59,826 nucleotides of DNA. It comes from a virus. The notes beneath the pieces were generated by a model. It was not told the origin of the DNA. It ran no database searches and worked only from the letters and a program-made list of their open reading frames with translations. The position numbers and the translations under genes are program-made. Shown one piece after another: positions 8,301-34,559 of the stretch. The stretch spans positions 1-59,826 of IMG/VR virus record IMGVR_UViG_3300021197_000662. One strand, written 5' to 3'. How positions within the stretch are numbered: the stretch's first letter is position 1; every line of letters begins with the position of its first letter.

Positions 8301-11300
8301 TCAAACTCAGCTCCTCTCGGAGTTAAGGGTACATACGCCCTTTATGTTGAGGCACACAGAAGAGCAGCAGCCAGAAGAAATGTTCTCCCTAGAGAGATGC
8401 AGTCTATAACATGGGAGGCTGTAAGGGGATTATTTACCCCAGCGTTTAAGCAAAACAAAAACAATGTTAGGATGATTGACCGTATCTGGAATGACTTCAG
8501 GTCTGGTCAGAAAACAATAGAGGAAGTAAGAGAGGAAGTTTTAAATGAAGCAGGTGACAAAGGAAGATTTCGTCCACCAAGCTGGGAAGGACCCGATAGT
8601 GGAAGCATTAGCAGCCCTGAACTTGCCGTTGACCCGACAGAACTATCTGGAAATGTCGTATCCAGAAGCAATCCCATCGATTACAGCGGAGATGGAGTCG
8701 GAACTACCGGAGGAACTCCTAATGCCGAAACAAAATATAGTAAGCGGTCGGTAAGATACGTCCCATCTTTAGAGCAAGGAACAGGACCACTCATATCAAA
8801 CAACGCCATGCTGAAGGCGTCAGAGCAATCTTACGATAGGATAACGTACAACAACGTAGCTAGAGTTCTTGGAAAACTTTACTCAAAGGTGTTTGACGAA
8901 AAGAAGGCACGGGCTTGGGAAGCTAAGACAGAACGCTTTGTGACTAAGTTTCAGGATGCAATGCTTCCTGTGGGCAAGCTTATGGACGAACTAAGGTCTG
9001 ATGGGCTTAGCATTCCAGACGCAATGGATGTCTACATGAGGGAAGAGCTTGCACAGGGCCTCATGGGCGCTAGGCTAGACGAAAACAAAGCTAATTTATA
9101 CGAGCCATTAACAGACACTATAAAGCAGATAGAAGTTGATCAGGCAAAGATTGATCAACTTGCAAACGTGTCTAGATTTTTTGAGGACGCCAGAGGGGCT
9201 TATGATCCAAAGCTAGCCATTGCTGATGCTTATCTTTATGCACTCCACGCGAAAGAAAGAAATGCATATGTTCTGGCTAGAAACAAAACAGGGCTTGGGT
9301 CAGGAATGTCAGACGGAGAGGCTGATGCGATACTAGCGTGGGTAGACTCTCTGAATGTCCAAAGCAAAAACACCTTAAACGGCATAAAAAATACCGTAGT
9401 ACAAATTGTACAGAACACAAATGACGTAAGAAGAGAAGGCGGCCTTATGGCTGAGGAGTACAGCTTCTCAAACTATGTGCCTTTGCGAGGCATACTTGAC
9501 CCAGAAGAAGACCTTTCAGAGGATCTGGATAGCGTTCCTAGGATGGGAAGAAAGAAAAGAGACAACCTTTACGGAGGCACGGCTTATCAAGACCCAAGAA
9601 TAACAACGGGTAGGGGAACTGAGTACGCTGAAGACATTATAGCAAATGTCATGGTTCAGAACTCTAGGTCTATTGTAGCGGCTGAGAGAAACAAAGTCGG
9701 TCAGGCATTCTTAAATATTATTGATCCAAAGATCATGGACCCTAATGCCGAGTATATAATGGAAAAGGATAACAGGGACGGCATAGCAATTATAGTCGAT
9801 AAAGTAACTCCTGACATGCAAGAAAATGTTCTAAAGGTAAAGGTCAATGGCAGACAAGAGCCTTACAATATTCTTATAAGAGACAACAGGGTCGCCAGAG
9901 CCATGAGAGGCGCTGGTGGGGATGGAATCGAAAGAGGCGGCGCTGTAGTCAGATATATGGCAAAGTTCAACAGATACCTCTCAAACATTAACACAACTTG
10001 GAACCCAGAGTTTGCCATCACAAACTTTTTCAGGGACTTGGAGACTGCTGGGGTAAACATAGGTCAGTACGATCAAGAGGGTATTAGCAGAGAAGTAATG
10101 AAGAACGCCGCCCCTGCCGTAAAGGGAATCCTCGCTGTCACCAGAGAAGGAGGGTTTGAGGGGTATGACAAAACAAACTGGACAGACGTATTTAATGACT
10201 TTGTTTCTGCGGGCGGAAAGAACTCTACCAACCAAGTTGATAGCGTTAAAGATCAAATGGAAAGCATCAAAAAGGTTCTTGATGAGGTTTCCAATAACAG
10301 CATAAAGGGTAAGCTGGGACTTTCTAGGAATGGCTTTCTTTATAAAATTGGCGGGTTCTTAGACGCTTACAACACGGCTGTTGAAAATGGAGTCCGAGTT
10401 GCAACATATCATGCCCTGTTAAAGAGAGGGTTTAGCAAAGACAGAGCAGCTCAAGCAGCCAGAAACGTAACAGTAAACTTTGCAAAGCAGGGGGAAGAAA
10501 AAGCCCTTATGAATGCTTTGTTCCTTTTCTACAATGCATCAGTGCAAGGATCTATGGCCCTGTTTAACGCTGGCATAAGGTCATCAAAGGTACGCAATAT
10601 ATGGGGGGGGATGATTATTGCTGGCGTCCTATTGGATCAATTTGCCGCTGCGGCTTCAGGAGACGAAGACGAGGACGGTGTAAGCGACTACGATGAGCTA
10701 GGTCAGTACACTCTTGAGCATAACATAATATTCCCTACATTTGGGCTTGTGGAACAAAAGTTTTTAAAAATACCTTTAGGGTACGGGCTTAACACGGCAG
10801 TCAATCTAGGTCGATCCATGAGCAGGGTTCAGCGCGGAGAGTACACCCCTGCTGAAGGCTTTAACTCTACATTTGGCACATTAGCAGAATCTCTTAACCC
10901 TCTAGGGGACACTAATTGGGAAAATGCATTAATACCTACTGTAGGCGATCCGTTTATAAGCTTAGCTGTAAACAAAGACTACAAAGGCGACCCTATCGTA
11001 AAGGAAGCATCTCCCTTTGGTGTCCAGAAGCCAGACAGCCAACTGTACTGGTCTAACACAAGCGCACTATTCAAGGGTATAGCTAGGGCTGTCAATTCTG
11101 GCACAGGCGGCACAGAGATAACCCCCGGAATGATAGACATTTCGCCAGAAACGATAGACTTCTGGGCGCAATACTTTACTGGCGCAGCAGGAGCATTTGC
11201 TCTTAGGACTGCTGAGTCTCCCTCAAAGACAATTGAGTCATTCAGAGGCGACCTTGAAGGTGATCTAATAAGGGAAATACCATTTGCCAGAAAGCTATTC

Positions 11301-11636
11301 ACCTCTCCCTCTTCAAGAGAGGACACAGGCCAGTTTATCGAAAACAGGGATAAGGTTCTAAGGGCGGCAAAGGAGCTTCAGTTCTCTTTGCAGTCTCAAG
11401 ACCCAGAGAGAGCCTCTGAGATAAGAAAAGAGTACGCCAACGAGTTAAAGATTTATGGTCAGCTAAAGGCCATGAACAACTACAGAAACAAGCTTGTCAG
11501 AAACAAGAACAAAGTTCAGTCAAGCAAGACAATACCAGAAGAGCAAAAGAAGGCTATCATAAGAAGCCTAAGAGACAAGATACAGGTAATAGAAAAAAGA
11601 GCCGCAATCATTATGAGGAATGCTGGCGTAAGGTAA
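2316..11636 (+). CDS. Giant polyvalent virion protein (3106 aa) with metallopeptidase-like and other toxin/enzyme-like domains
   Basis: This is the largest gene in the window and has a clear ribosome-binding site (AAAGGAG). The N-terminus carries Gly/Ala-rich hydrophobic stretches. An HEIIH zinc-protease-type motif lies at residues 782-786. Around residue 1343 is VHDYFGHGLEG, a His-rich conserved patch. Around residue 1496 is LIHYSPIVGLDTISPREQL, resembling ADP-ribosyltransferase-like segments found in phage proteins. A further conserved domain starts near residue 1759. Near residue 2557 is a TTWNPEFAITNFFRDL segment typical of very large phage virion proteins. At about 2783-2795 is an acidic DEDEDGVSDYDEL loop like a calcium site. 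The order fits the polyvalent proteins thought to be injected with phage DNA. DarB-like antirestriction or internal ejection roles are both possible; specific activities are inferred. Confidence 0.75.
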   Translation: MANVYADSKRTGKSYLVSIAGDSPTPQELADIERYVDAVEGFGAPTTVQESPDEVGNLIDFTQGAASGLARSIADVPGGLASLTAAGLRKFVPGDQGEDSIESFGQGITDAARTGIDYVIGTPDDNIAGKAGQAIGSIGSYFLGGAGVVKGLGALGKSASAQRIGGTAAAATMGVGQGAQNQVDRIARFIEQGGEPTEKDLAILTGGLIGATEALPISKAFGVIANIFKKVPKDVKESAVKKLIPRLKSAAKVGGYEAIQESAAAWLQDLTEQGLYNPDLDISMSAYKDDAIYGGGAGATFNFLLETVAGRRVKKVLKAQTQLVLDQREEGEEVKQQVERAKGSLNEPEAPEAIAGLLTGPTEEGGVKDTTDFTVGADGDAVRERDEFGRPIDESTPFEDDLKNNPKEATKAFNENLKDLGLNQDQEQQALAEAARETQLGDQPVDLSELSEGESATLRQSRVRAGVQDVDGPTSLDEIKDVLGLPTYNRIGARQKPRTWQKALSEEEKSLAAEDAAIKEKVIDNKDAAKVLVESGEVLNKDGTVNRLKLQKALSLTVQQAQALINNMKTEGVVEPVSRTKVRPANPPTPPTEQQEAERSAETVLNELTRMRQEQQERINAAKEVGVGSQAEQLAIEDAQRAIDELDAKIKVQEVKLSDVRASAPPRPSASQARNNQALVVQEEAEGAKPTEEYKRRINAVANALRKYLFGLGLKDVDLVSQNVIDYSETINPDGSKDINITEGSEQAGENARRIITLAMEIYDPNLSEAELEQRLAGVLNHEIIHAMKGLGLFTDAEWASLVKAAEKRKYAKTINGRTIDREYTFLDRAEFMYPEDTPESQQEEAVAEMFRAYAEGRIKVGGKPKGLFSRMVRFIKSIFNAHADAGFTSAAEIFDGIKSGKVGRRQRNIRAASIAPAGAKYSTAGVRGTNIRAGFLIPERGNVERIQQSFKDVTKRIPQLTEAAQKLSDGTILYDEYDRLVNEFKPIIPYETVPAPATNEEMEGALKSNQIPKLNMLSKDMDGLVTGMRLDVSAYRDYGVWVPTIHHGKRSNVTNKDGKNLANLTISHQSTGIIENATFEAPQGRALAVAKGAQKGPFSTIEGTYKHATPDQSFAIAQQMMNDPTVVQVGFDPERHSYFYDRMTTQPVISADLVVQVGPLVLAKNPVFGNKSEFKFSVRTIRNMPTNLIGPIPIVHDVKTQYMNSVGLPNRRQGEYVEVDLPLATRIAAAFEEAEDRPNDPDVQIAYQAMANETMAQWQFIKNTGLDVEFIKEDMDNPYPNGSRDVLMDIRDNNHMWVFPTDTGFGQASITAEDEAANPLLAKADETVDGIDMRINDVFRIVHDYFGHGLEGATFTARGEENAWQSHVRMYSPTAAKAMTTETRGQNSWVNFGPVGEQNRENPASTVYAEQKITLLPDFAVNEGVAPDLESTNEQERINRSIKGSRISGDARSDRARVDRVATGSGNVRGEIPEGQEADFGTPKPTVDENGLTRLIHYSPIVGLDTISPREQLTNNRMRGDERERKVKFPNIYQARSYFGMNVGEANGYNQEATVGNNVYETQVPVDSLYDYDKDPEGFITKAANSVDDNIMERTWNKPKQFITTTAEKSIKDAGYSGYWSNSRMGMVAAMFNDTVVKPEGSIEKPVKRSARTATIDVPNVNNVDGARISQRFPKGASATEDPIEEILQLGANDIINNPKLLARTAEIVRGYNIITEEEAASLGDKELVETLIERLSSNLEFVYDNVPEATRERSKLWYVGANRIANENALKYSEESGSPVSIEQAAAVMAALSPQKDWYQNVSLGERLIDIYKTKMDFVPTPEMEATARRIFPKDVHQPMLDIIFMQGRNMPLSEYADAPLLQAMFIRLYDETYNDRGYYIVSPDGQNIGWARNANGSRSRVAWGSNKEITKAVMALTNPESISSEMGDRHKVRNFFNNIAAPFSQDGDVTSDTHAVAAAHLKPLSGSSTEVHHNFGTSPVASKRDENWRGAVSNSAPLGVKGTYALYVEAHRRAAARRNVLPREMQSITWEAVRGLFTPAFKQNKNNVRMIDRIWNDFRSGQKTIEEVREEVLNEAGDKGRFRPPSWEGPDSGSISSPELAVDPTELSGNVVSRSNPIDYSGDGVGTTGGTPNAETKYSKRSVRYVPSLEQGTGPLISNNAMLKASEQSYDRITYNNVARVLGKLYSKVFDEKKARAWEAKTERFVTKFQDAMLPVGKLMDELRSDGLSIPDAMDVYMREELAQGLMGARLDENKANLYEPLTDTIKQIEVDQAKIDQLANVSRFFEDARGAYDPKLAIADAYLYALHAKERNAYVLARNKTGLGSGMSDGEADAILAWVDSLNVQSKNTLNGIKNTVVQIVQNTNDVRREGGLMAEEYSFSNYVPLRGILDPEEDLSEDLDSVPRMGRKKRDNLYGGTAYQDPRITTGRGTEYAEDIIANVMVQNSRSIVAAERNKVGQAFLNIIDPKIMDPNAEYIMEKDNRDGIAIIVDKVTPDMQENVLKVKVNGRQEPYNILIRDNRVARAMRGAGGDGIERGGAVVRYMAKFNRYLSNINTTWNPEFAITNFFRDLETAGVNIGQYDQEGISREVMKNAAPAVKGILAVTREGGFEGYDKTNWTDVFNDFVSAGGKNSTNQVDSVKDQMESIKKVLDEVSNNSIKGKLGLSRNGFLYKIGGFLDAYNTAVENGVRVATYHALLKRGFSKDRAAQAARNVTVNFAKQGEEKALMNALFLFYNASVQGSMALFNAGIRSSKVRNIWGGMIIAGVLLDQFAAAASGDEDEDGVSDYDELGQYTLEHNIIFPTFGLVEQKFLKIPLGYGLNTAVNLGRSMSRVQRGEYTPAEGFNSTFGTLAESLNPLGDTNWENALIPTVGDPFISLAVNKDYKGDPIVKEASPFGVQKPDSQLYWSNTSALFKGIARAVNSGTGGTEITPGMIDISPETIDFWAQYFTGAAGAFALRTAESPSKTIESFRGDLEGDLIREIPFARKLFTSPSSREDTGQFIENRDKVLRAAKELQFSLQSQDPERASEIRKEYANELKIYGQLKAMNNYRNKLVRNKNKVQSSKTIPEEQKKAIIRSLRDKIQVIEKRAAIIMRNAGVR

Positions 11637-14797: not shown

Positions 14798-15682
14798 TTA
14801 ACCTTCTCCTCTGTACTGTGAACAAAAATCGGAAACTCCACAATAGTCACCGATACACCTTACCGCCTCTCCGGCTCGGTATTCTATTTCTAAAACATAT
14901 TCATTATCACGCGCTTTATGAGCCTGAGAAAATTCATTCGCTAATTGTTCAGTCTCAAAAACTCTCAAGGCTCTCTTGTTTCCCTTCTTTTTTACTGCCC
15001 AAGAATCGCTGCGCTTCCAAATTTCATCATTAGAACAAAAGGGGAACTCGCCCTCAGCGTCATACATCTTCTGCGCTTCTTGATGAATGCCAACTCTTTC
15101 ATTGATGTAATTGATGCGCGTCTCCTCGTCCCATATTGGGATGTCAACCAGCACAACAGGCGCACTAGGGTAGTCTGGCTTGTACTTTGATTCCCTCTTG
15201 TTCCAGTCCCTCAGTATCGCGCATATCTGCAAAGAGTTGACCTTTTTACCCTTATTTTTTTGTACGAGGTAGGCGTACATATTAAGTTGCCGCTCCCACT
15301 CAATCTTCCCATAGATCACAGACCAAACGCTTGTGACCTTGTAATCAGTTATCTGAATGTTTGCCCGATCAACAACCTGATGATCAACAGCCCCTGACAA
15401 GACCCATCCGTTAACCTCTGCAAACAACCTTTCCTCAAGTACGACATCATCAGATGGCTTGGTACTCTCAAGGACATGGTGAACAGCAGTGCCAAACAAA
15501 GGCCATATCATGTCTACTGCATCAACAGTTCTATCGTTGGCGTGATGATCCCTCATCAGCCTCACCCTTGGGCTGTCTATAAGGGTAGTGACAGATATGT
15601 CAGCATTTCCCTTGCTATATTTGTCATTTCTGGCAAAATCAACAAAGGATTTGGGCAATTTGTGATTATTGGTAATTTCCAT
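14798..15682 (-). CDS. PD-(D/E)XK exonuclease, RecB/Cas4-like
   Basis: The protein is 294 residues from the ATG at 15682, placed after a GGGAGGGA ribosome-binding site; an ATG at 15715 would include the promoter. The nuclease core is visible: His in GTAVHHVLE (about 68-69), Asp100 in SGAVDH, Asp113 and Lys115 in TDYK, and Gln132 followed by Tyr in QLNMYAYL. The C-terminus has CIGDYCGVSDFCSQY, a cysteine cluster like the iron-sulphur site of Cas4/AddB-type nucleases. It is the first gene of the minus operon and should resect DNA ends for the annealing protein just downstream. Confidence 0.8.
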   Translation of the reverse strand: MEITNNHKLPKSFVDFARNDKYSKGNADISVTTLIDSPRVRLMRDHHANDRTVDAVDMIWPLFGTAVHHVLESTKPSDDVVLEERLFAEVNGWVLSGAVDHQVVDRANIQITDYKVTSVWSVIYGKIEWERQLNMYAYLVQKNKGKKVNSLQICAILRDWNKRESKYKPDYPSAPVVLVDIPIWDEETRINYINERVGIHQEAQKMYDAEGEFPFCSNDEIWKRSDSWAVKKKGNKRALRVFETEQLANEFSQAHKARDNEYVLEIEYRAGEAVRCIGDYCGVSDFCSQYRGEG

Positions 15683-15705
15683 GTTGTCCCTCCCTGTGAG
15701 TTTTT

Positions 15706-15734
15706 GTTGTATCAAAAGCGTTTATTAATGTCAA
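15706..15734 (-). promoter_or_regulatory. Sigma70-type promoter for the minus-strand recombination operon
   Basis: On the minus strand TTGACA (15734-15729) is followed after exactly 17 bases by TACAAC (15711-15706), then by a short leader and the exonuclease ribosome-binding site. The -35 is perfect and the -10 has two mismatches. It lies in the roughly 70-base gap between the divergent exonuclease and resolvase genes. Confidence 0.65.
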
Positions 15735-15754
15735 TAAGGAATTTTGAGGACGAT

Positions 15755-16153
15755 ATGAACACAAAAACACATCAATTTGAGATACTTGGAGAACCGGCAT
15801 CAAAGGCCAACAGCAGAAAGATAGTTTTGATAAGAGGACGGCCAGCTTCTATAAAATCGGACAAGGCTAGGAAGTATGCCAAGTATTTCCTTGAGCAATG
15901 TGATCAGATAGAAGAGTTATTTTCTGGAGATGTTTGTGTCGAAATGTTAATCCACTACGCATCAAGAAGGCCAGACTTGGACGAAAGCTTGATCTTGGAT
16001 TTAATGCAAGGAAAGATTTACGAAAATGACCGGCAAGTTAAGCAGAAGAATATTTACTGGGGGCTTGATAGGGAAAGGCCAAGAACAATCATCAGAGTGT
16101 CATCTCTGGAGAGCGGTAATATCCCAAGCTATCTCGGATGCTTACCTGAATGA
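15755..16153 (+). CDS. rusA: RusA-like Holliday junction resolvase
   Basis: The 132-residue protein starts at 15755, after TTGAGGACGAT; ATGs further upstream (15728, 15476) lack a ribosome-binding site or overlap the divergent exonuclease. The N-terminal GEPASKANSRK and the acidic set Asp74, Asp76 and Asp92 (RRPDLDESLI and YENDRQVKQK) correspond to the RusA catalytic Asp residues. RusA dimers resolve four-way junctions in a metal-dependent reaction. It is transcribed divergently from the exonuclease/annealase operon and precedes the primase-helicase, consistent with resolving recombination and replication intermediates before packaging. Confidence 0.8.
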   Translation: MNTKTHQFEILGEPASKANSRKIVLIRGRPASIKSDKARKYAKYFLEQCDQIEELFSGDVCVEMLIHYASRRPDLDESLILDLMQGKIYENDRQVKQKNIYWGLDRERPRTIIRVSSLESGNIPSYLGCLPE

Positions 16154-16337
16154 CGAAAGACAAAAAGACGATGTGATCAAATGGCTACGCACAGAAGACT
16201 TTGTGACTGTTTGCGATCTTGCCGACATAGATCACCGAAAAATGAAAAATAACTTTCTGTATATTTTGACACAGAAAGAACCGATTGCCCGATACGAAGG
16301 TAGAAAGTTAAAAGATTTAATAGATAGAAAACCGTAG
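16026..16337 (+). CDS. Small conserved phage protein with possible HTH
   Basis: The product is up to 103 residues. The C-terminal 70 residues (WRAVISQAISDAYLND, then IKWLRTEDFVTVCDLADID) resemble a small domain common in alphaproteobacterial phages and prophages and are probably helical, possibly DNA-binding. The start is uncertain: the ATG at 16026 has only a distant AAGGA and overlaps RusA by 128 bases, a TTG lies at 16065, and no standard start codon occurs between it and the conserved part. The function of the family is not known to me. Confidence 0.6.
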   Translation: MTGKLSRRIFTGGLIGKGQEQSSECHLWRAVISQAISDAYLNDERQKDDVIKWLRTEDFVTVCDLADIDHRKMKNNFLYILTQKEPIARYEGRKLKDLIDRKP

Positions 16338-16430
16338 TAAAGATAATCTATAAACAGTCTATATAGAGATTATATTTATGTTATATATATTATATAAACA
16401 CATAATTCCTTGTCTCTGATACCTCCAAAA
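16338..16430. other. AT-rich intergenic region, possible replication origin
   Basis: The roughly 90 bases before the primase-helicase promoter are almost entirely A and T, with alternating TA runs and an imperfect inverted repeat (AATCTATA with TATAGAGATT). An easily melted tract next to the replicative primase-helicase gene is a reasonable origin candidate. No iterons were seen, so this is only a suggestion. Confidence 0.25.
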
Positions 16431-16437
16431 ATGCTTA

Positions 16438-16465
16438 TTGACAGATCAGACGGCATCGATATATC
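16438..16465 (+). promoter_or_regulatory. Promoter for the primase-helicase
   Basis: TTGACA at 16438-16443, a 16-base spacer and TATATC at 16460-16465 form a good host-type promoter. It is followed about 10-15 bases later by GTGGAGGACAAA, the ribosome-binding site of the ATG at 16491. The promoter lies inside the upstream part of the open frame and so supports the shorter start. Confidence 0.65.
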
Positions 16466-16490
16466 GTGTACGCCTGTCGTGGAGGACAAA

Positions 16491-18245
16491 ATGCAAAATG
16501 ATATATTGATACGCGGAGCAGCACTCCGCATGGGGGAAGGTCAGCACAAAGCTGTATGCCCCATCTGCTCACCCAATAGAAAAAAGAAGGGCGAAAGAAC
16601 CCTTTCCCTAAAGGTCGATGTAGAAGGAATTTTATACAATTGTTGGCACTGCCAATCATCTGGGGTCATCACCCTTGATGAGCGTCCTATGCCTGTTAGA
16701 AAGGAAGCTAAAGTGGCTGTTGTTGTTAAGCAAGATTGGGACGATTTAACAGCAAATACAATTGCTTGGCTTGGCAAGAGGGGGATATCAGAAAGCACTG
16801 CTAAGGATGCCAAGATCAAGACAGCGCAGCACTACATATCTTCTTTAAAAAAACAGACTGAGTGCGTTGTTTTTCCATACACAAATAAATCTCAGGTGTA
16901 TGCGGCGAAGGTCAGGGCTATATCTGACAAGGGCTTTTCTTGCAGCGGATCACCCGCATCATTTTTTAATTTGGATTCTATTGTAGAGGGGGAAGACCTA
17001 TACATTTGTGAAGGCGAAATGGATGCCCTCTCACTAATGGAGATAGGTTTCAAAAGTGTCGTGTCTGTCCCCAATGGGGCGGTGATGAAAGTTGTTGACG
17101 GCAAGATAGACCCTCAAGACGATAGCAAGTTTCGGTTTCTATGGGACGCAAAAGACAACCTTGATGCAGCAGCCAGAATAATAATTGCCACAGACTCAGA
17201 TGGGGCTGGAGAGGCTATGGCAGAAGAGATTGCCCGAAGGATAGGCAAGGACAAGTGTTGGCGTGTTGAGTGGCCTGATGACTGCAAGGATGCCAATGAC
17301 GTTCTGGTGAACTTGGGCAAGGATCATCTTAAAAAGATATGTGAAGAGGTCACGCCTTGGCCGGTAGCCGGTCTGTATGATGCGTCACACTTCTATGACC
17401 AGCTAGACGAGATATACGAAAAGGGGATGGGCAAGGGCGCTTCAACAGGATATGGGAATGTCGATGATCTCTATAGTGTTGTAGAGGGGCAGCTAACAGT
17501 GGTCACAGGACACCCATCATCTGGTAAGTCTGAGTTCGTTGACCAGATCATGGTAAACTTAGCTGAGGAAAAGGGTTGGAAGTTTGCCATATGTTCATTT
17601 GAAAACGAACCCCGAATACATATAGCAAAGCTGATAAGCAAGCATTTCGCAAAACCATTCTTTACTGGGATAACCCCAAGGCTAAGCAAGGAAGAACTGG
17701 AAAAAGGGAAGTCGTTTGTCAGGGAACACTTTAGCTTTCTCTATCAGAACGATGGGTCTATGGCCACTATTGGCGGCATAATAGAGCGATTGAAGATTGC
17801 GGTTATGAGGCACGGCATAAGGGGCGCTGTAATAGACCCATACAATTACATTCAGAAAAACGGAGACATATCGGAGACTGACTGGATTAGCGAGATGCTT
17901 ACACAGTTAAGGGTGTTTGCTCAGTCTCATGGAATACATCTGTGGTTTGTGGCTCACCCTACAAAGATGATGCGTGATTCTAACGGCAAGGTTCCACCAC
18001 CAAAGGGGTATGACATATCTGGATCAGCCGCTTGGTTTGCAAAGGCAGACATAGGCATGTCAGTACACAGGCCAGATCCAGTGAATAGCTCTATGTCAGA
18101 AATACATATATGGAAGTGTAGATTTTCTTGGGTTGGCAAACAGGGAGTTGCGGAACTGTACTTCAATCCAACAACATCAAAATACACAGAGGGAATAAAG
18201 GACGACTTTTTATCTCAGTCACCTCAATACGACACACCATTCTAG
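16491..18245 (+). CDS. Fused DNA primase-helicase (T7 gp4/Twinkle-like)
   Basis: The protein is 584 residues from the ATG at 16491, chosen because GGAGGAC lies just upstream and a promoter occupies the longer open frame. Domains in order: a four-Cys zinc ribbon (Cys23, 26, 51, 54) that reads template in primases; a TOPRIM core with CEGEMDALS at about 173-181 and Asp235-x-Asp237 in IIATDSDGAG; and a RecA-like helicase with Walker A GHPSSGKSE near 340-348, GAVIDPYNY as Walker B, and LWFVAHPTK as a later motif. It should unwind the fork and lay down RNA primers. No phage DNA polymerase was recognised, so it may load host polymerase. Confidence 0.9.
   Translation: MQNDILIRGAALRMGEGQHKAVCPICSPNRKKKGERTLSLKVDVEGILYNCWHCQSSGVITLDERPMPVRKEAKVAVVVKQDWDDLTANTIAWLGKRGISESTAKDAKIKTAQHYISSLKKQTECVVFPYTNKSQVYAAKVRAISDKGFSCSGSPASFFNLDSIVEGEDLYICEGEMDALSLMEIGFKSVVSVPNGAVMKVVDGKIDPQDDSKFRFLWDAKDNLDAAARIIIATDSDGAGEAMAEEIARRIGKDKCWRVEWPDDCKDANDVLVNLGKDHLKKICEEVTPWPVAGLYDASHFYDQLDEIYEKGMGKGASTGYGNVDDLYSVVEGQLTVVTGHPSSGKSEFVDQIMVNLAEEKGWKFAICSFENEPRIHIAKLISKHFAKPFFTGITPRLSKEELEKGKSFVREHFSFLYQNDGSMATIGGIIERLKIAVMRHGIRGAVIDPYNYIQKNGDISETDWISEMLTQLRVFAQSHGIHLWFVAHPTKMMRDSNGKVPPPKGYDISGSAAWFAKADIGMSVHRPDPVNSSMSEIHIWKCRFSWVGKQGVAELYFNPTTSKYTEGIKDDFLSQSPQYDTPF
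16520..16533 (+). repeat. 14-bp repeat, copy 1 (start of primase-helicase)
   Basis: AGCACTCCGCATGG is identical to 18259-18272 just after the gene. Here it also forms the right arm of a hairpin, GCGGAG-CAGCA-CTCCGC (16514-16530), early in the coding sequence. Confidence 0.5.
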
Positions 18246-18656: not shown

Positions 18657-18839
18657 TTATTTCCAGTCCATTCTGATTACACGGCCATTGGGTTCTAGAT
18701 CAGCAATATCACCATCCTTGTTGCTAAGTGTATATTGCTCACTGATCCTATCCCAGATCATGGTAGTAACGATTTCGGGTAATTTCCCGACCTTTCTACA
18801 TTCCATGATATAGGCCATTTTTGCTTCGTCAAAATTCAT
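18657..18839 (-). CDS. Small hypothetical protein (60 aa)
   Basis: This is the last gene of the second minus-strand operon. The product is not recognised; it includes MNFDEAKMAYIMECRKVG and an ISEQYTLSNKDGDIADL segment of small beta-rich character. Its ATG lies one base after the preceding small membrane gene's stop, and it ends beside the bidirectional terminator. Confidence 0.55.
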   Translation of the reverse strand: MNFDEAKMAYIMECRKVGKLPEIVTTMIWDRISEQYTLSNKDGDIADLEPNGRVIRMDWK

Positions 18840-18840
18840 A

Positions 18841-19002
18841 TCACGCGCCCTTCTTTGCCAATTGAACGATCCCTACCATTGCCATAAACGCGCCAGAATA
18901 AAGAACCAGCATGCCAACGAATAAGCTATTGGAAGGTATCTCTATATATTCAACCCCAGCGAACGAAATGAACAGTCCTAAGAAAAATATAAAGTAATTC
19001 AT
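18841..19002 (-). CDS. Small membrane protein (53 aa)
   Basis: This gene is short. The ATG at 19002 overlaps the upstream stop as ATGA and follows GGAGAGAAC. Two hydrophobic helices are evident: YFIFFLGLFISFAGV and FVGMLVLYSGAFMAMVGIV. A basic tail (LAKKGA) follows. It is probably an inner-membrane protein with both ends on the same side. Candidate roles, such as a superinfection-exclusion peptide or an early host-takeover protein, are guesses. Confidence 0.65.
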   Translation of the reverse strand: MNYFIFFLGLFISFAGVEYIEIPSNSLFVGMLVLYSGAFMAMVGIVQLAKKGA

Positions 19003-19244
19003 GTGTTCTCTCCATAGACATTACCGCACATCATATCGACATGGTATGTGAATGAGTCGTAGTTTATCCAGCGATATGGTGATGCATCGATTATAAACAC
19101 AGGAAGGGCATGCATCATATATTCACGCCCTTCTTTATAGACATTGTGACTAGCCTTACGAATACCGTCATCATACTCATCGACATCAGGCTTATAGACA
19201 TAGCCCTGATATCGATATGTCGGTGCGTTATGCCAGCTAATCAT
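18999..19244 (-). CDS. Hypothetical protein rich in Tyr/Asp
   Basis: The 81-residue product is not recognised. It has unusually many aromatic residues (Tyr, Trp, His), for example SWHNAPTYRYQGYVYKPDVD and RWINYDSFTYHVD. No membrane segment or metal motif is obvious. It overlaps the genes on both sides, as expected for a coupled operon of small early proteins. Confidence 0.55.
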   Translation of the reverse strand: MISWHNAPTYRYQGYVYKPDVDEYDDGIRKASHNVYKEGREYMMHALPVFIIDASPYRWINYDSFTYHVDMMCGNVYGENT

Positions 19245-19413
19245 AAAAGTCTCCTAAAGCACACTCGACTGTTTCCTGAGCTTCAAGGGCCATGATAAGC
19301 TTTTGCCTGTTATCCTTGTGATAAGGGTGCATAAGCTGTTCGATAATTGTGTCCAGACCAACCTCAATAGCGTTCAATTCGGCTGGCGTTAACCTAAGAT
19401 TTATTACAGTCAT
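19237..19413 (-). CDS. Small hypothetical protein (58 aa)
   Basis: The start at 19413 is chosen because AAGGGAGAGACAAA precedes it and it overlaps the upstream stop as ATGA; an ATG eight codons upstream is weaker. The protein begins MTVINLRLTPAELNAIEVGL and is probably all-helical. Such LTPAEL starts occur in many small phage regulators, but I do not recognise a family. Confidence 0.55.
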   Translation of the reverse strand: MTVINLRLTPAELNAIEVGLDTIIEQLMHPYHKDNRQKLIMALEAQETVECALGDFYD

Positions 19414-19625
19414 TTTGTCTCTCCCTTGCTTGACCAATATTCATTCCAATGATCAGACATGACCTCAGTCTTTTCCTCATCGGACATATGAGCCAACAAA
19501 TCAAACGACTTGTTGACTACCAGTTTATCTTGAAGATCAGTGATGTCTTCACATCCGCCGATATGTTTTGAAACCTCATCAGCAAACTTATCTTCTAAGC
19601 CTAATATCCAGCTAGACATACCCAT
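19410..19625 (-). CDS. Small acidic hypothetical protein (71 aa)
   Basis: The product is not recognised. It is acidic and helical (LEDKFADEVSKHIGG, SDEEKTEVMSDHW) with a possible protein-binding role. The gene is coupled by overlap to those before and after it in the second minus-strand operon. Confidence 0.55.
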   Translation of the reverse strand: MGMSSWILGLEDKFADEVSKHIGGCEDITDLQDKLVVNKSFDLLAHMSDEEKTEVMSDHWNEYWSSKGETK

Positions 19626-19834
19626 TACACTTGCTCCCCTTCGATCTCATAATCTAAATATCCGCAAGCGGCATCAACGCCCAACAAAAACATTTCTTTA
19701 TCTTCCTCTGTATCGAAAGCGTATGTTTCTGTCTTGTCTTGGCAGGTTCCCCATATAATAGTGATAACGTGATTTGCGTTATCAATTTGCTCTTGGGTTT
19801 GAGCAATACAGTTTATGATTTGCTTTTGTACCAT
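19625..19834 (-). CDS. Small hypothetical protein whose start codon lies in a GTAC palindrome
   Basis: The product is 69 residues, not recognised, with two cysteines and an acidic TEEDKEMF segment. Its initiator ATG is the centre of the perfect palindrome at 19826-19841, so a protein bound there, or an RNA hairpin formed by it, could block both transcription and translation. AGGGAG lies upstream as ribosome-binding site. Confidence 0.6.
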   Translation of the reverse strand: MVQKQIINCIAQTQEQIDNANHVITIIWGTCQDKTETYAFDTEEDKEMFLLGVDAACGYLDYEIEGEQV

Positions 19835-19841
19835 GGTACAA
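19826..19841. promoter_or_regulatory. GTAC palindrome spanning a start codon
   Basis: TTGTAC-CATG-GTACAA is fully self-complementary over all 16 bases. It overlaps the minus-strand start codon at 19834-19832 and lies ten bases from the stop of the gene at 19851. Confidence 0.65.
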
Positions 19842-19850
19842 ATCTCCCTT

Positions 19851-20666
19851 CTAGTTTTCCATCATTTTCGTTAAGTGCCGGACAGTCCGGCGGTTCATAA
19901 GATTAAAGGCTTTCGACAGGCTCTCGCCAAAGCTATGCGGGATCACCGTTTCATCGCGGATCATATCAAACAGCGGATGCAGGTCATCGTGATCACTTGA
20001 TTTGTGGGTGATCATCCAGCCATTCTCAGTAAAGCCCATCTTTTTGTTGAAGCCGACAACAGTCACTTCCCAAGCATTCAAGCCAGCCTCATCAACATAC
20101 TGAACGTCAACAGGCTTGCACCTCATAACGAACCTTTTGCCTTTGGGTGATTGAATGATTGAAAAGCCTTTTAGGTGTATTGTCTTGAACCATGTGATCG
20201 GGACAGGAACAAGATTGCTCATATTGTAACGGCCTTCATTCTCGATCTCTACTTTGGAGTCCCCATTACTGGCCGAAAAAATCTCAGATGTTGATCTGGG
20301 GAATGCGCTATCGATAACCCTTTGTGCCTGTCTTTTTGATTTTGTTTTGGCATTCTTTAACGGGCTGTAACCGTCTATTTGTTTTCTTTCTTCACGATAC
20401 CGCCTGATGGCCTTGCCAGCATTCTCGCAATAGTTTTCAAAAGCTTTCCAGATATTTTCTGAATTGCTTTTTGCCAACCTTTCCTCAATGGCATGGATTT
20501 GAGGTTTTACATCTTGATCAGCCCTGTAGCTTGAGTGAGTGCCATGCTTAATGAAATGAGCAATGACCTTCATTGGAACGCCCACAACACCACCCGACCA
20601 ATGGGCTTTGAAATTCTCCAAATCGCTAAGCAGGAACTGAATATTTTTATATGTATCTGTCTGCAT
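19851..20666 (-). CDS. Hypothetical protein downstream of the VWA gene
   Basis: The product is 271 residues from the ATG at 20666, which follows GGAGACAAAA. I do not recognise the family. The N-terminal half is helical and basic (ENAGKAIRRYREERKQ); the C-terminal half seems to be a beta-rich domain (ITWFKTIHLKGFSIIQSPKGKR, then VQYVDEAGLNAWEVTVVG). No catalytic motif is visible. Its start resembles that of the gene at 23897: both begin Met-Gln-Thr after a GGAGAC leader. It is in the same operon as the MoxR-like ATPase and VWA protein and may be a partner or substrate. Confidence 0.6.
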   Translation of the reverse strand: MQTDTYKNIQFLLSDLENFKAHWSGGVVGVPMKVIAHFIKHGTHSSYRADQDVKPQIHAIEERLAKSNSENIWKAFENYCENAGKAIRRYREERKQIDGYSPLKNAKTKSKRQAQRVIDSAFPRSTSEIFSASNGDSKVEIENEGRYNMSNLVPVPITWFKTIHLKGFSIIQSPKGKRFVMRCKPVDVQYVDEAGLNAWEVTVVGFNKKMGFTENGWMITHKSSDHDDLHPLFDMIRDETVIPHSFGESLSKAFNLMNRRTVRHLTKMMEN

Positions 20667-20689
20667 TTTTGTCTCCATTGGGTGACGGC

Positions 20690-21841
20690 CTAAGCCGCCA
20701 CCTCTATGCGTGTTGTTTCACCAAACGGTGCATCATTGCAACGCTCATCAGTTGATACCCAAAGCACCGGATAATCTGGCACACGATCAGGGAAATCGAA
20801 TATTCCCATGTCGGTCAGGTAAACAAAATTATCGACAGGCAAGCAATTATCATCGATGTATTTAAAGACCGGTTCTACTCGCGTACCGCCCCGACCATTA
20901 CATTCGATCTTGTCGATGATATCGCCCTGACCATATGTCTTGACCGACTGGATCTTGCTATCGCAAGTTATGACAGTAAGGCTCTTAGGCTTGTGATCTT
21001 CCGACATATTGTTGAGTTCCCCAAGGAATTGCTGGAGTTCAACAGTACCGACTGATCCGCTAGTATCAACAGCCACCACCACATCACCGACACCGATCTT
21101 GTCAACGGCTGGCATGTAGATGCCTTGAGTGTAGTAGACCTTTTTATTGCAACGCCTGAACGTGTAGTCATCAGGCTGATCACCACCGATAAAGCGGTTG
21201 AACACATCACGCCAGTCAACCTCAGACCGCCGCATTTTGTCGATCAGTTCTTTAAGCTTGCCCGATAGTTTACCGACAGCTTTTGCATTCGATGCTGCAA
21301 GCATCACACGCTGATCATTAGATGCCTTGGCCTGTTCTATTTCGGCCTTAGAAGGCTCACCACCATCCTTACCTTGCATCTCACCTACATCACCACCCCA
21401 AGGCTGCTTGGATGGCTTCTTGTCCTTTTCTAGGCGGTTTAACAGCCTATACACTTGAAGCCATGTCATCCCAGAATATTGAGGGTCATATAAACCGCCC
21501 TGTGGCATTTCCATACCGTCTTCTTTTAGGTATGCGTTTATCACATAATCCATTGCCATATTTTGCAATTCATGGTTCGTTGGCTGGCCATCAATTGTCT
21601 TGACTGGTATGCAATGGTTCAGCATCGCGTGACCCACCTCATGGGCTATGACAAACTGCAAACCTTTGTCAGTCAGGCTATCAGCAAACGCTGGGTTCCA
21701 ACGAATACATTTGCCATCGGTTGCCATAGTCGGGATCGTGTCATCTTCGATGAAGGGCAAGCCCAAGGTCAGTGAACCCCAGAACGGCTTGTCCAGTACA
21801 AGTCTAGTTTTTGCTCTCGCAATTTTGGTTTCTATATCCAA
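20690..21841 (-). CDS. Metallopeptidase-like/VWA protein (DUF2201 type)
   Basis: The 383-residue protein starts at TTG 21841 after GGAGATTTTGAA. Near the N-terminus is HEVGH (67-71), a zinc-metallopeptidase-type motif. The middle is charged. The C-terminal domain has VAVDTSGSVG, a complete metal-ion adhesion motif (Asp259, Ser261, Ser263) of von Willebrand factor A folds, then TDMGIFDFPDRVPDYPVLW. This two-part layout matches the DUF2201 family, which commonly accompanies MoxR-type AAA ATPases; such an ATPase is encoded at 22106 in the same operon. MoxR/VWA pairs remodel or activate other proteins, often inserting metals. The target here is unknown. It could also act against host proteins. 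Confidence 0.8.
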   Translation of the reverse strand: MDIETKIARAKTRLVLDKPFWGSLTLGLPFIEDDTIPTMATDGKCIRWNPAFADSLTDKGLQFVIAHEVGHAMLNHCIPVKTIDGQPTNHELQNMAMDYVINAYLKEDGMEMPQGGLYDPQYSGMTWLQVYRLLNRLEKDKKPSKQPWGGDVGEMQGKDGGEPSKAEIEQAKASNDQRVMLAASNAKAVGKLSGKLKELIDKMRRSEVDWRDVFNRFIGGDQPDDYTFRRCNKKVYYTQGIYMPAVDKIGVGDVVVAVDTSGSVGTVELQQFLGELNNMSEDHKPKSLTVITCDSKIQSVKTYGQGDIIDKIECNGRGGTRVEPVFKYIDDNCLPVDNFVYLTDMGIFDFPDRVPDYPVLWVSTDERCNDAPFGETTRIEVAA

Positions 21842-21852
21842 TTCAAAATCTC

Positions 21853-22062
21853 CTAATGTCTCTCATGGTCTTGATCTGAAAATTTACATGCAACATCTCT
21901 GCCTTTTGATCCGAAAACTACAATGTCGAGATCAGCATCTATATCACCATGCATTCTTTGATCATGGAAAAGGTGTATGAAATCGGGCTTGCCAAAAACT
22001 TTGATCGCGGCTGAAAATTCCGCATCAGTTCTGAACCCGACAAAATGGACTGATCTTTTCAT
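21853..22062 (-). CDS. Small hypothetical protein between MoxR and VWA genes
   Basis: The 69-residue product is not recognised. GGGAGATATACG precedes the ATG. It has a FVGFRTDAEFSAAIKVFGKP start and several Asp and His residues (DADLDIVVFGSKGRD). It is encoded between the AAA ATPase and the VWA protein and may belong to their complex. Confidence 0.6.
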   Translation of the reverse strand: MKRSVHFVGFRTDAEFSAAIKVFGKPDFIHLFHDQRMHGDIDADLDIVVFGSKGRDVACKFSDQDHERH

Positions 22063-22105
22063 CGTATATCTCCCGAAAGAATTGGGGGGAAAATCCCCCC
22101 CAGTT

Positions 22106-23119
22106 TTACAGCATCAATTCTTTGCCATCCGAAAGTAAGAACTTGCGGAATGCATCAGTCTTTTTAATGCTTGGTGTGCGGTTCATTGCATCCCTAATTG
22201 AGAACACCGCAAATTCTTTGTGCGGTAATCTTTTGAGATACTGAATGATATTGCCAATATTTTTATCGTTGGCTCGACTACTCAGAGCCGCAGAAACCGC
22301 ATAGCACACCGCTGGGTCTTCGGCGATTGGTGCGCTATCTGGGTTGGCAATCAGTGCATCAATGTCTGGGCAACTCTCGTAAACTTTTTTGTAGCCCATA
22401 AACTCAGCACATGCACCTCGCCCCACTTGACCTGACACCGCTTCGTTTTCGTTCACCGCATCAAGCTTGAAACCCATGATGGTATCGACACGCTCCCATG
22501 ATCTAGGTGAAGGGCAAGCATCAGCATCGCGATCAAACTTGTGCAGCAACTCTGGCCGAAAGCGCAGGAAGCCGGTGATCAAAGGCGATACCCCGACTGA
22601 ATTATAGTAGGCCACCGCGTCTTCTAGATCGCTGTCCACAGAAGTGAACAAAAGTCGATCCTTTACATGCGATGGGAGTTGATTTGTACCAGCACGATCC
22701 GACATTTTGTTGCCAGCACATACGATAGCCCAACCGTCAGGCAGTCTATGCTCACCAATCCTACGCTCATTAATTATGACCGCTGATATGTTGAGGCAGG
22801 CAGTCGGGGCTTGCGCTAATTCATCAAGGAACAAAATTCCTTCGCCCTCAGTTGGCATCCAATCTGGACGCAGGCGTTTCATTCCATCACCATCATTCAC
22901 CAGCCAGCCTGCAAGCTCGCCAGCATCGTACTGGGCAAGGCTGACCGTCTTTAATGATATCCCACGATCTTCAGCGATTTGCTGAACGATGGTAGTTTTA
23001 CCAAGACCGGCTGATCCGACAAGGTATGGGATTGGCCGTTGTGCATCACGCCCATTTGAATGCTTCATTTGACTGTCGATACATGCCTCGACTATGGCTC
23101 TTGCTTGCGATATACGCAT
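22106..23119 (-). CDS. MoxR-like AAA+ ATPase
   Basis: The 337-residue protein starts at 23119 after GTGGAGATTAG. It has Walker A GSAGLGKTT (35-43), Walker B ILFLDEL (95-101) and the sequence GWAIVCAGNKMSDRAG, a sensor-1/arginine-region layout typical of MoxR-family AAA+ ATPases. These form hexamers and work with VWA-domain proteins to remodel substrates; the VWA partner is at 20690. A perfect GTAC palindrome lies 22 bases upstream of the start (23141-23156), so the gene may head a regulated transcript. Whether it serves phage assembly or host takeover cannot be told from sequence. Confidence 0.85.
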   Translation of the reverse strand: MRISQARAIVEACIDSQMKHSNGRDAQRPIPYLVGSAGLGKTTIVQQIAEDRGISLKTVSLAQYDAGELAGWLVNDGDGMKRLRPDWMPTEGEGILFLDELAQAPTACLNISAVIINERRIGEHRLPDGWAIVCAGNKMSDRAGTNQLPSHVKDRLLFTSVDSDLEDAVAYYNSVGVSPLITGFLRFRPELLHKFDRDADACPSPRSWERVDTIMGFKLDAVNENEAVSGQVGRGACAEFMGYKKVYESCPDIDALIANPDSAPIAEDPAVCYAVSAALSSRANDKNIGNIIQYLKRLPHKEFAVFSIRDAMNRTPSIKKTDAFRKFLLSDGKELML

Positions 23120-23140
23120 ATCTAATCTCCACTAATATTT

Positions 23141-23156
23141 TTGTACCATCGTACAA
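23141..23156. promoter_or_regulatory. GTAC palindrome upstream of the MoxR-like gene
   Basis: TTGTAC-CATC-GTACAA, perfect arms, lies between the genes at 23187 and 22106 and just 5' of the latter's ribosome-binding site. It is positioned like an operator. Confidence 0.6.
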
Positions 23157-23186
23157 ATTTTGGTTAAGGTTGGTAGGCAAAGCCGC

Positions 23187-23897
23187 CTAAGCGGCTTCAC
23201 CTTCAAGTTGGTTAATCATGGCATCAACTGCCTCATTTTCTGACTGGGTGATATCGCCAGCAGTTTGACTGCCTTGTCTCATATCAGCCCTAACCCTCAA
23301 TGCATTTTCTAATTCATTTTTGAAGGTATCAACAATCGCCAGAAAAGCATCTTCAGTCTGGTCTTTTTCACCCAAACCACCGATCCACTTATCGCCGTCA
23401 ACACGATTGCCATCAGCATCTTTTTTGGTGGATCGCTTGCCGACAAGCTTATCGACAAGAAGCTGGGTTGCAGTCTTGTTTGGCTCATCAGCAACGGCCT
23501 TAATTAGTTTGGCCTCGCTGGTGATATCGGCATCTTCAAACACATCACCCACCATTGTCGGTGTGATGTTGTCACCGTTGATGCCAAAAATCCTAATCGC
23601 ACCGGCTGTGTTTTTGATCAACTTATTGGCCATGCCATCAGTAATCTCTATTTGTTTCATGTTGATAAGCTGGTTTTTAAGATCACTGCTAATTTTGGGT
23701 GGCAGATTTCCCTTTTGCAAACCATGCTTGGCAACGCATGAAATGATCACGCAGTAGGTATCAAGCTTTCGGCTGTTAGCCTCTTTTGAACTCTCTTTTG
23801 AATTTTCTTTAAGAGCCTTGATGGTCTTTTCATTCTCACCGATGACAGTAAGATTTGTTGGATCGATAGGTAAATTTTTAGCAGCAGATGTCTGCAT
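23187..23897 (-). CDS. Hypothetical protein (MoxR/VWA operon)
   Basis: The product is 236 residues from the ATG at 23897, preceded by GGAGACTGTT. The family is not recognised. It is acidic and Lys/Glu/Asn-rich with many helices (NEKTIKALKENSKESSKEA; DAFLAIVDTFKNELENAL). There is no membrane segment or clear catalytic motif. A set of three hairpins precedes the gene. It may act with the MoxR-like ATPase encoded immediately downstream, but this is inferred from position only. Confidence 0.6.
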   Translation of the reverse strand: MQTSAAKNLPIDPTNLTVIGENEKTIKALKENSKESSKEANSRKLDTYCVIISCVAKHGLQKGNLPPKISSDLKNQLINMKQIEITDGMANKLIKNTAGAIRIFGINGDNITPTMVGDVFEDADITSEAKLIKAVADEPNKTATQLLVDKLVGKRSTKKDADGNRVDGDKWIGGLGEKDQTEDAFLAIVDTFKNELENALRVRADMRQGSQTAGDITQSENEAVDAMINQLEGEAA

Positions 23898-23924
23898 AAC
23901 AGTCTCCATCTTTAAGGTTGAAAT

Positions 23925-23980
23925 ATAGCAGGACGCTATGACCCAGCACCGGCTGGGTTTCGGGCGTGTCCTACGCGCCC
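23925..23980 (-). other. Three tandem perfect hairpins in the MoxR operon
   Basis: Within the 83-base gap before the gene at 23897 are three back-to-back stem-loops: 23962-23966 with 23976-23980 (GGGCG/CGCCC), 23941-23947 with 23952-23958 (7 bp, loop of four) and 23925-23929 with 23935-23939 (5 bp, loop of five). None is followed by a U-run on the minus strand. They might be an RNA processing or protection site, or control of the downstream gene. Confidence 0.45.
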
Positions 23981-23992
23981 ATCATCAGATAG

Positions 23993-24223
23993 CTATATGG
24001 CAATGTATTCGGTCAACAATAGTGTGCCTTGCTTCACAAGCTTGCCGTTTTGCATCAGGTAGTAGGCGTGGAAGCGGCGGTTTTTATAAACCGCGATCAT
24101 CTCAGGCTTTTCCCCAAACGCCTTGTTGCAGCGAAAAATGTATTCACCCAATTCCTTGATCGTTGGCTTGAGTGGGTACAAAGTTGTCTTACCGTTGTCG
24201 TTGAGTTGATTAGCTGAATACAT
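23993..24223 (-). CDS. Hypothetical protein (76 aa)
   Basis: The product is not recognised. It includes LGEYIFRCNKAFGEKPEMIAVYKNRRFHAYYLMQNGKLV, a compact basic alpha/beta-like sequence. Its ATG overlaps the stop of the short gene upstream as TAATG. It is an early member of the second minus-strand operon. Confidence 0.55.
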   Translation of the reverse strand: MYSANQLNDNGKTTLYPLKPTIKELGEYIFRCNKAFGEKPEMIAVYKNRRFHAYYLMQNGKLVKQGTLLLTEYIAI

Positions 24224-24387
24224 TACGCATTCCCCTTTTTCTTTGGTTTACGTCTGGAAATAATCTCAGCCAATGTGAGCTGAAAAACTGGTGTGGATTG
24301 GTACTGCTCATCTTGAAATGCAATCTGCTTGACGATTTCAGTTTTGTTGGCTGCATCAGGTGATGGAATGAAAGGTGATTTTTTCAC
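24223..24387 (-). CDS. Small basic hypothetical protein with GTG start (54 aa)
   Basis: The gene uses a GTG start at 24387 after AGGGAGCCACGCC and so is easily missed. The product is KKSPFIPSPDAANKTEIVKQ at its start and ends in ISRRKPKKKGNA, a strongly basic tail. It overlaps the next gene by one base (TAATG). It is apparently the first protein gene of the second minus-strand operon, preceded by a structured leader. Function unknown. Confidence 0.65.
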   Translation of the reverse strand: MKKSPFIPSPDAANKTEIVKQIAFQDEQYQSTPVFQLTLAEIISRRKPKKKGNA

Positions 24388-24668
24388 GGCGTGGCTCCCT
24401 GTTTCGCGTGTCTCATCATAACTGGGGTACGATCCCCAGCGACAGGTTTTGTTACAATGTCGGGTCTCTCTCGACTGCCCGATTACAGCGACACATGTGC
24501 CGCCTCAGTATTACCACCGCATCCATTATCCTAGTGTCAGGCCTAATCGATTTTTGCTTGGGCGTAGGCGTATTCAGATGCCATCAGAGCCGTAGTGCGG
24601 TAGTGTCCAGTCTTCGGGGTTGCTAGCCCCTCGCCCCAGTGGGCGGTTAAATCAGTAGCGGTGGCCTC
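24388..24668 (-). other. GC-rich structured leader of the second minus-strand operon
   Basis: About 280 bases upstream of the first gene are more GC-rich than the flanks and carry several hairpins: 24422-24427/24434-24439 (6 bp), 24460-24464/24478-24482, 24616-24619/24627-24630 and 24632-24636/24641-24645. At the 5' side on the minus strand is a perfect AGGAGG (near 24665) followed by 41 open codons down to a stop at 24543 but with no normal start codon. Short start-stop frames with weak ribosome sites (for example 24 codons near 24440-24520) also occur. It may be a regulatory leader, a decayed gene or an unusual start. Confidence 0.4.
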
Positions 24669-25226
24669 CTAAAAAATTTGACAAAAAAAACTTATTTCTT
24701 TTCGTAGCACAGCTAGACAACGCATGCAAACACTAAATGCATCTAACAACACTAATTTGTCAGAGGGTACAAATGTAAGCCGTTTGAACCATGCGTTTTG
24801 TTGTAGTGTGCCTCCTAATAAGTAGACGATCCAGAAACCACTATTATTGTGTGACCATGATATTTTTTTTCCTCTCAAACAGTAGACGTTTCAGAACGCA
24901 AAATTATTCACTGCTATTTTATTTTATTTTGAGACTGTGACATATCCGCAACACCAACCCTCAAAACACCCTAATATTTGTTTGTACACAAACAAGTTTG
25001 TTCACCATGTGTTCACGGTCTGGAACAAAACGTGAAAACGAGCGAGGTTGATCTGTGAGTAGGGGCTGGCGAAAGCCGTGTATCATTCCTACCAAAAACA
25101 CCTTTAATCGCTGTATGAGCTTCTATGGGCGTTTAATCGCCATGAACAAAAGGGGAACATTGCCATTTTGGGGGTTATTGTCTATATGTGAGGAATAGAG
25201 CCGATCTGGTGCGATTTAGGGTGTGA
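24669..25226. other. Non-coding region between early and late halves
   Basis: I see no convincing gene here. Features visible are a degenerate GTAC palindrome at 24757-24772 (TTGTCA-GAGG-GTACAA), an 18-base palindrome TTGTTTGT-AC-ACAAACAA at 24978-24995, two AGTAGACG copies at about 24823 and 24881, each followed by a CAGAA-type match, and two TTTAATCGC copies near 25110 and 25130. An open frame on the minus strand (24669-24878) has a TTG start and poor composition and is not called. Because early genes diverge leftward and late genes rightward from here, it may hold an origin or control region. Confidence 0.4.
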
Positions 25227-34499: not shown

Positions 34500-34559
34500 T
34501 AATAAGAACCTTGACAGTCGCATAGGGCGGCTGACATTAGCCGAGACAAGGAGTTCCTC

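Follow-up and report, generated by a model that had tools for sequence, protein, structure and literature searches.

A MoxR-type ATPase and a DUF2201 metallopeptidase-VWA protein with two conserved flanking proteins in an uncultured marine phage

Gene arrangement and genomic setting

The window, that is, the whole stretch of DNA analysed here, is the IMG/VR virus record IMGVR_UViG_3300021197_000662 (59,826 bases) of a marine virus from an uncultured phage group. Following the minus strand, the genes encode protein X (23187–23909, 240 aa), a MoxR-type AAA+ ATPase (22106–23119, 337 aa), a DUF2201 metallopeptidase-VWA protein (20690–21841, 383 aa, TTG start) and protein Y (19851–20678, 275 aa). 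Between the ATPase and VWA genes there are a 43-bp gap, a 69-aa ORF on the same strand (21853–22062) and an 11-bp gap, and a DUF3150-like gene is not found in this interval. The 69-aa ORF was found in two loci of the first locus set (L004 and L006; L numbers denote the loci compared in this study). As it is patchy among relatives, it is probably not a core part.

The gene block adjoins replication and recombination genes (a Sak-like annealing protein, an exonuclease and a primase/helicase) and lies on the strand opposite to that of the head and tail genes. From this arrangement, an early position of the block is plausible. A MoxR/VWA remodelling pair in the non-structural half of the phage is supported; the placement in the early half given by the initial annotation is plausible from the gene position. 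The megablast search of the region against phages gave zero matches.

The ATPase and the VWA protein

The ATPase reaches the cut-offs of both the Pfam AAA_5 and AAA models and matches phrog_1297 ('ATPase') of PHROGs with an E value of 7e-70. The motifs are Walker A (GSAGLGKT), Walker B (ILFLDE), the sensor-1 Asn in AGN and the sensor-2 region SPRSW, and according to an alignment of 26 phage sequences, all four motifs are present in the ATPase. The score against bpMoxR, a Pfam profile for one MoxR subgroup, is 16.9 bits and is below the cut-off of 27. The MoxR label is based on the general AAA models, phrog_1297, the motifs and the VWA partner. In the sequence, an insert-like stretch is located ahead of Walker B and is a candidate for the MoxR helix-2 insert near the pore loop.

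The VWA protein has a metallopeptidase-like domain with HExxHxxxxH at the N-terminus and a VWA domain with a complete MIDAS at the C-terminus. The Pfam scores are 109 bits for DUF2201_N (cut-off 23.2) and 80.7 bits for the DUF2201 VWA domain (cut-off 26.4), PF13203 and PF09967 are both over the cut-off, and the match to phrog_1314 has an E value of 5e-97. The protein carries HEVGHxxxxH and the MIDAS residues D259, S261, S263, T320 and D344. In the alignment of the window sequence with 27 phage VWA sequences, 28 of 28 rows carry HExxHxxxxH as well as the DxSxS, Thr and Asp of the MIDAS. In the 25-row alignment A3, the residues H67, E68, H71, H76, D98, D259, S261, S263, T320 and D344 are invariant. 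An HExxH motif with further ligands is typical of proteases. Nothing close to the ATPase or the VWA protein was found in the PDB by sequence. These results bear out the initial assignments of both proteins, and there is little doubt about what the pair is.

The family phrog_1314 is labelled 'HNH endonuclease', and the same annotation is given to its members in many phage records; according to the observed domains, the window member is a DUF2201 metallopeptidase-VWA protein.

Proteins X and Y

X is encoded directly upstream of the ATPase, and Y directly downstream of the VWA gene. The alignments contain 31 sequences for X (30 homologs) and 33 sequences for Y (32 homologs), always in the same place. 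The order X-ATPase-VWA-Y on one strand was observed in 85 of the 119 loci in viral contigs, and nearly all of the remainder are cut by contig ends. The 85 loci are redundant, several being from the same contigs; the distinct VWA sequences number 37 and form 23 clusters at 90%. Since part of the locus set was retrieved via the ATPase or VWA protein and is biased toward co-occurrence, the fair test is given by the scans seeded with X or Y, in which the ATPase or VWA gene was missing only at contig ends. Exceptions to the order with sufficient room on the contig are the two CRP-7-like loci L057 and L058 as well as L170; Y was undetected in L058 and L170, and X was undetected in L057. Where computable, dN/dS of X, the ATPase, the VWA protein and Y is about 0.03–0.16, indicating purifying selection. 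The four-gene module is well supported, and what is new here is that the previously unnamed X and Y flank the pair in a fixed order.

The initial annotation listed small unknown proteins at 21853, 19851 and 23187. These ORFs exist and have no trusted family match, but two of them are proteins of 240 and 275 aa that are strictly conserved neighbours of the pair. Weak scattered matches of X and Y, searched member by member in Pfam and PHROGs, were taken as chance, and tblastn of X and Y against the phage records gave zero matches. One gene of cyanophage MinM2 was detected as a relative of X by hmmsearch (E 1.1e-6). The MinM2 gene directly upstream of the ATPase matches X weakly (hhalign probability 7%), and its place is supportive. 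Similarly, Y matches gp16 of Roseobacter phage CRP-7 weakly by sequence (hhalign 16%), and the syntenic place is supportive.

The AlphaFold2 model of X (mean pLDDT 77.7) is helical, with an N-terminal domain and a C-terminal helix of 54 residues. In the model of Y (mean pLDDT 81.3), the N-terminal half is helical, and the C-terminal domain is beta-rich with a long helix at its end. For X, VIA-align over the best 1000 Foldseek chains gave a best Z of 6.0, in which the long helix alone is aligned; this value is within the range that means merely a common arrangement, and the candidate was rejected. For Y, the Foldseek search of the PDB gave no match at E ≤0.001. The single match of Y among viral models is a 321-aa protein (E 7e-7, TM 0.43, rmsd 12.3); CRP-7 gp16 is of the same length.

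Distribution and ancestry of the pair

The tblastn search of 50,697 phage records (E 1e-5) detected VWA homologs in 662 records and ATPase homologs in 778 records, the two being counted separately so that each figure refers to one gene and not to the pair. Both genes were present in nine of nine phages examined in detail, and podoviruses and myoviruses both carry them. In the window, the two families phrog_1297 and phrog_1314 are close together on one strand. The pair has an early or replication-gene neighbourhood in this virus, N4, CRP-7, DSS3phi2, phiFa and MinM2. N4 gp24 and gp25 are among the 14 core genes of 25 N4-like phages, and they are middle transcripts (PMC4193335). In a jumbo-phage survey, the same fused metallopeptidase-vWA architecture is described together with MoxR (PMC7824862). 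The search for this neighbourhood in other phages, which had been suggested as a check, thus found the pair widely, in addition to the 85 loci with all four genes. The statement that the system had yet to be described for this phage group holds only in a narrow sense, because the pair is core in N4-like phages (PMC4193335), is described in jumbo phages (PMC7824862), and is carried by CRP-7. The ATPase/VWA pair itself is already known from several hundred phage genomes.

Cellular homologs of the pair are also widespread. Among the matched bacterial ORFs, HExxHxxxxH is present in 56 of 82 and a DxSxS motif in 79 of 82. An ATPase is upstream on the same strand in 69 of 79 bacterial relatives, and in many cases a gene encoding about 300 aa lies in between; this gene is 29% identical to the MinM2 gene annotated DUF3150. 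X and Y gave no match among the bacterial relatives of the pair. A DUF3150-like gene between the ATPase and VWA genes was seen at 15681–16553 in a cyanophage locus (L024) and at 6039–6974 in an Acidobacteriota locus (L077); the Pfam library used did not recognize it in either.

A quick tree built from 96 VWA proteins places the window protein with CRP-7 in a 12-row all-phage clade (SH-aLRT 99), and the long deeper branches of this tree were left unused. Since the VWA protein is located in an all-phage clade, it is not a recent host import, which the initial annotation had named as a refuting finding. The ancestry of the pair is thus shown to be old and phage-borne.

Comparison with known systems

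N4 gp24/gp25 (Schitoviridae, phrog_1297/phrog_1314) share with the window the same two families, their order, their location as neighbours and a non-late position. Unlike in the window, a dCTP deaminase gene follows, X and Y are not found, and the identity is 27–28%. The nearest named proteins are those of CRP-7 (gp07/gp15/gp16), with 43% identity for the MoxR ATPase and 32% for the VWA protein, and gp16, which directly follows the VWA gene, is the probable counterpart of Y. However, seven genes separate the ATPase from the VWA gene in CRP-7, and X is undetected. The jumbo-phage pair has the same domain architecture of both proteins; virion assembly is proposed for it, and the passages of the survey examined mention neither X nor Y (PMC7824862).

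In the cellular MoxR-[DUF3150-like]-DUF2201 triads (e.g. L077 of Acidobacteriota), the ATPase gene likewise precedes that of a DUF2201 protein with this architecture, but the triads contain the DUF3150-like gene, which is absent in the window, and neither X nor Y has a match in them. Cyanophage MinM2 shares this middle gene. NorQ/NorD also consist of a MoxR ATPase and a VWA protein that contains a MIDAS; in contrast to the window protein, the N-terminal domain of NorD is not described as a metallopeptidase, and the known target is nitric oxide reductase. Neither X nor Y was detected next to the pair of N4, S-TIM5, phage G, PA5oct or FV3, and the core machine therefore does not need X and Y.

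Palindromes and hairpins

Two GTAC palindromes had been noted next to the genes. The perfect dyad TTTGTAC-CATC-GTACAAA (23140–23157) lies in the gap between X and the ATPase, just upstream of the ATPase ribosome-binding site, and a site is present in the same gap in L003 and L015. The perfect dyad TTTGTAC-CATG-GTACAAA (19825–19842) lies between Y and the next gene and overlaps the start codon of the latter; a site is present in the same gap in L003–L007, L037 and L038. In relatives, dyad sites in the corresponding gaps are often located 3' of a GC-rich hairpin and 5' of a ribosome-binding site. The dyad GTACNNNNGTAC occurs exactly 10 times in the window against 0.37 expected, at positions 7443, 11767, 19828, 23143, 25237, 26142, 34441, 38888, 40838 and 49345. 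Allowing up to three mismatches, TTTGTACNNNNGTACAAA occurs 16 times against 3.1 expected. Nine of the 16 dyads are intergenic, and the intergenic share of the window is 6.9% according to the gene map made here. The palindromes are thus real and far beyond chance, but they belong to a dispersed genome-wide element and are not a property of the operon.

Two other explanations of the dyad were rejected. The first is an RNA hairpin whose loop would always have one sense; the sense-strand centre is GATG at some genes and CATC at others, and because of this variation a DNA site is favoured. The second is that the dyad belongs to the module; the module is retained in L012, L042 and similar groups, and no exact site was found in them. 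From its distribution in the sequence, the dispersed dyad is a candidate for a genome-wide operator or promoter element.

Three hairpins were found on the minus strand. At the 3' end of X, the hairpin AAGCCGC-TTAG-GCGGCTT (23180–23197) has the stop codon in the loop, and other paired stems are found in the same place in L006, L007 and L012. A GC-rich hairpin follows the ATPase gene (22083–22102), and L006 and L007 have other paired GC-rich stems at this position. The hairpin GGTGGCGGC-TTAG-GCCGTCACC (20681–20702), located at the 3' end of the VWA gene, has one mismatch and also has the stop codon in the loop. In both the X and VWA hairpins, the loop contains the stop codon of the gene that is closed, and paired base changes are observed in relatives.

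The genes had been assigned to one minus-strand operon, next to a structured leader. The shared minus strand is confirmed, but a single operon is unproven, as GC-rich hairpins are present between the genes and a dyad and a new ribosome-binding site precede the ATPase gene. The structured leader is not supported: the region 24388–24687 folds no better than shuffled sequences (z −0.28), and no match was found in Rfam.

Proposed function

We presume, with a probability of about 0.45, that the pair is an ancient phage-borne MoxR/VWA machine acting on a non-virion complex of the phage (of the replication or transcription stage), with X and Y as clade-specific partners. A non-virion role is favoured because of the replication-gene position, the middle timing in N4 and the absence of gp24/gp25 homologs from the 13 virion proteins tabulated for RPP1/RLP1 (PMC4193335).

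In this machine, the ATPase would form a ring, and the VWA domain would dock on it, by analogy, with the MIDAS metal site binding the target. Driven by ATP turnover, the VWA domain would then shift relative to the zincin-like domain at the N-terminus, and the latter may cleave or remodel the bound target, much as NorQ/NorD act on a metal-insertion target; a twisting mechanism is described for NorQ/NorD (PMC13036017). Since a zincin-like domain is present, cleavage or forced remodelling of the bound protein is the natural guess. X, with its long C-terminal helix, and Y would select the target. They are most likely bound substrates or adaptors, and clade-specific partners are the likeliest assignment because X and Y are conserved with the pair in the clade and are not found with the pair in distant phages. 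Ring assembly, docking, peptidase activity, the partnership of X and Y, the timing and the target are what we infer here.

A more specific proposal is that X-ATPase-VWA-Y is an undescribed four-part machine, in which an AAA+ ring would drive a VWA-fused zincin and two dedicated phage proteins would direct this zincin to a nucleoprotein complex, so that the complex is matured or dismantled in phage replication. In part of the clade, the machine would be co-switched with other phage genes via the GTAC dyad. This proposal is speculative, and we consider it rather unlikely.

Virion assembly, in which the pair would remodel and trim structural proteins in head or tail assembly, had been named in the initial annotation as a refuting finding; the indirect evidence on it is mixed, and it is doubtful but the most probable of the alternatives. 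In S-TIM5, the Hsp20, MoxR and VWA genes are close to an annotated virion protein gene, and the ATPase of PA5oct is marked ESI-MS/MS; these annotations fit virion assembly and keep it alive against the non-virion role. The MoxR/VWA pair of the Acidianus two-tailed virus reportedly has a role in virion assembly. The same role is proposed for the same domain architecture in the jumbo-phage survey (PMC7824862), and the second structural module of RPP1 is near its gp24/gp25 homologs (PMC4193335). However, the pair is accompanied by early, middle or replication genes and not by late genes in this virus and in most of the phages compared, and it occurs in podoviruses and myoviruses alike. The absence from the RPP1/RLP1 virion proteins also argues against this role, although an assembly factor can be missing from the finished virion.

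The initial annotation suggested host takeover or anti-defence, in which the machine would extract, unfold or cleave a host protein early in infection. The position on the non-structural side agrees with this idea, an unfoldase partner with a fused peptidase-like domain would be apt for such a task, and the clade-specific X and Y could be targeting adaptors. Positive evidence was not obtained, and the reading is improbable: the genes evolve slowly, the pair has core gene status across many, very different hosts, its activity is not virus-specific in view of the widespread cellular homologs, and there was no defence-related match. PADLOC, which lists defence genes and not anti-defence genes, found nothing. 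Purifying selection, host breadth and the empty PADLOC result argue mildly against a fast arms race and are compatible with attack on a conserved host process; a specialised anti-defence role is less likely because of the slow evolution and the breadth over hosts. Metal insertion, in which a metalloenzyme of the phage or host would receive a metal and the zincin-like domain would serve as metal carrier rather than protease, is very unlikely, as there is no one metalloenzyme gene that occurs with the pair throughout the phages compared and the HExxH motif with its further ligands is protease-like, although the well-studied MoxR/VWA pair NorQ/NorD performs this function (PMC13036017) and the metal-binding residues are invariant.

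The gp24/gp25-type pair is a core gene set in several hundred sequenced phages, and X and Y, as its likely partners, give a first concrete handle on its target; with X and Y known, interaction tests among the four proteins become direct. If a regulator binds the dispersed dyad, gene control in this uncultured marine phage group would be explained.

Other features of the window

At 2316–11636, the window encodes a giant polyvalent-type protein of 3106 aa with LPD38 and DUF7178 domains, which is adjoined by a 688-aa protein with endolysin and tape-measure matches. A match to the Rfam Mu-gpT-DE RNA (61 bits) is located at 34509–34562, just 3' of a gene matching the major head protein family phrog_371.
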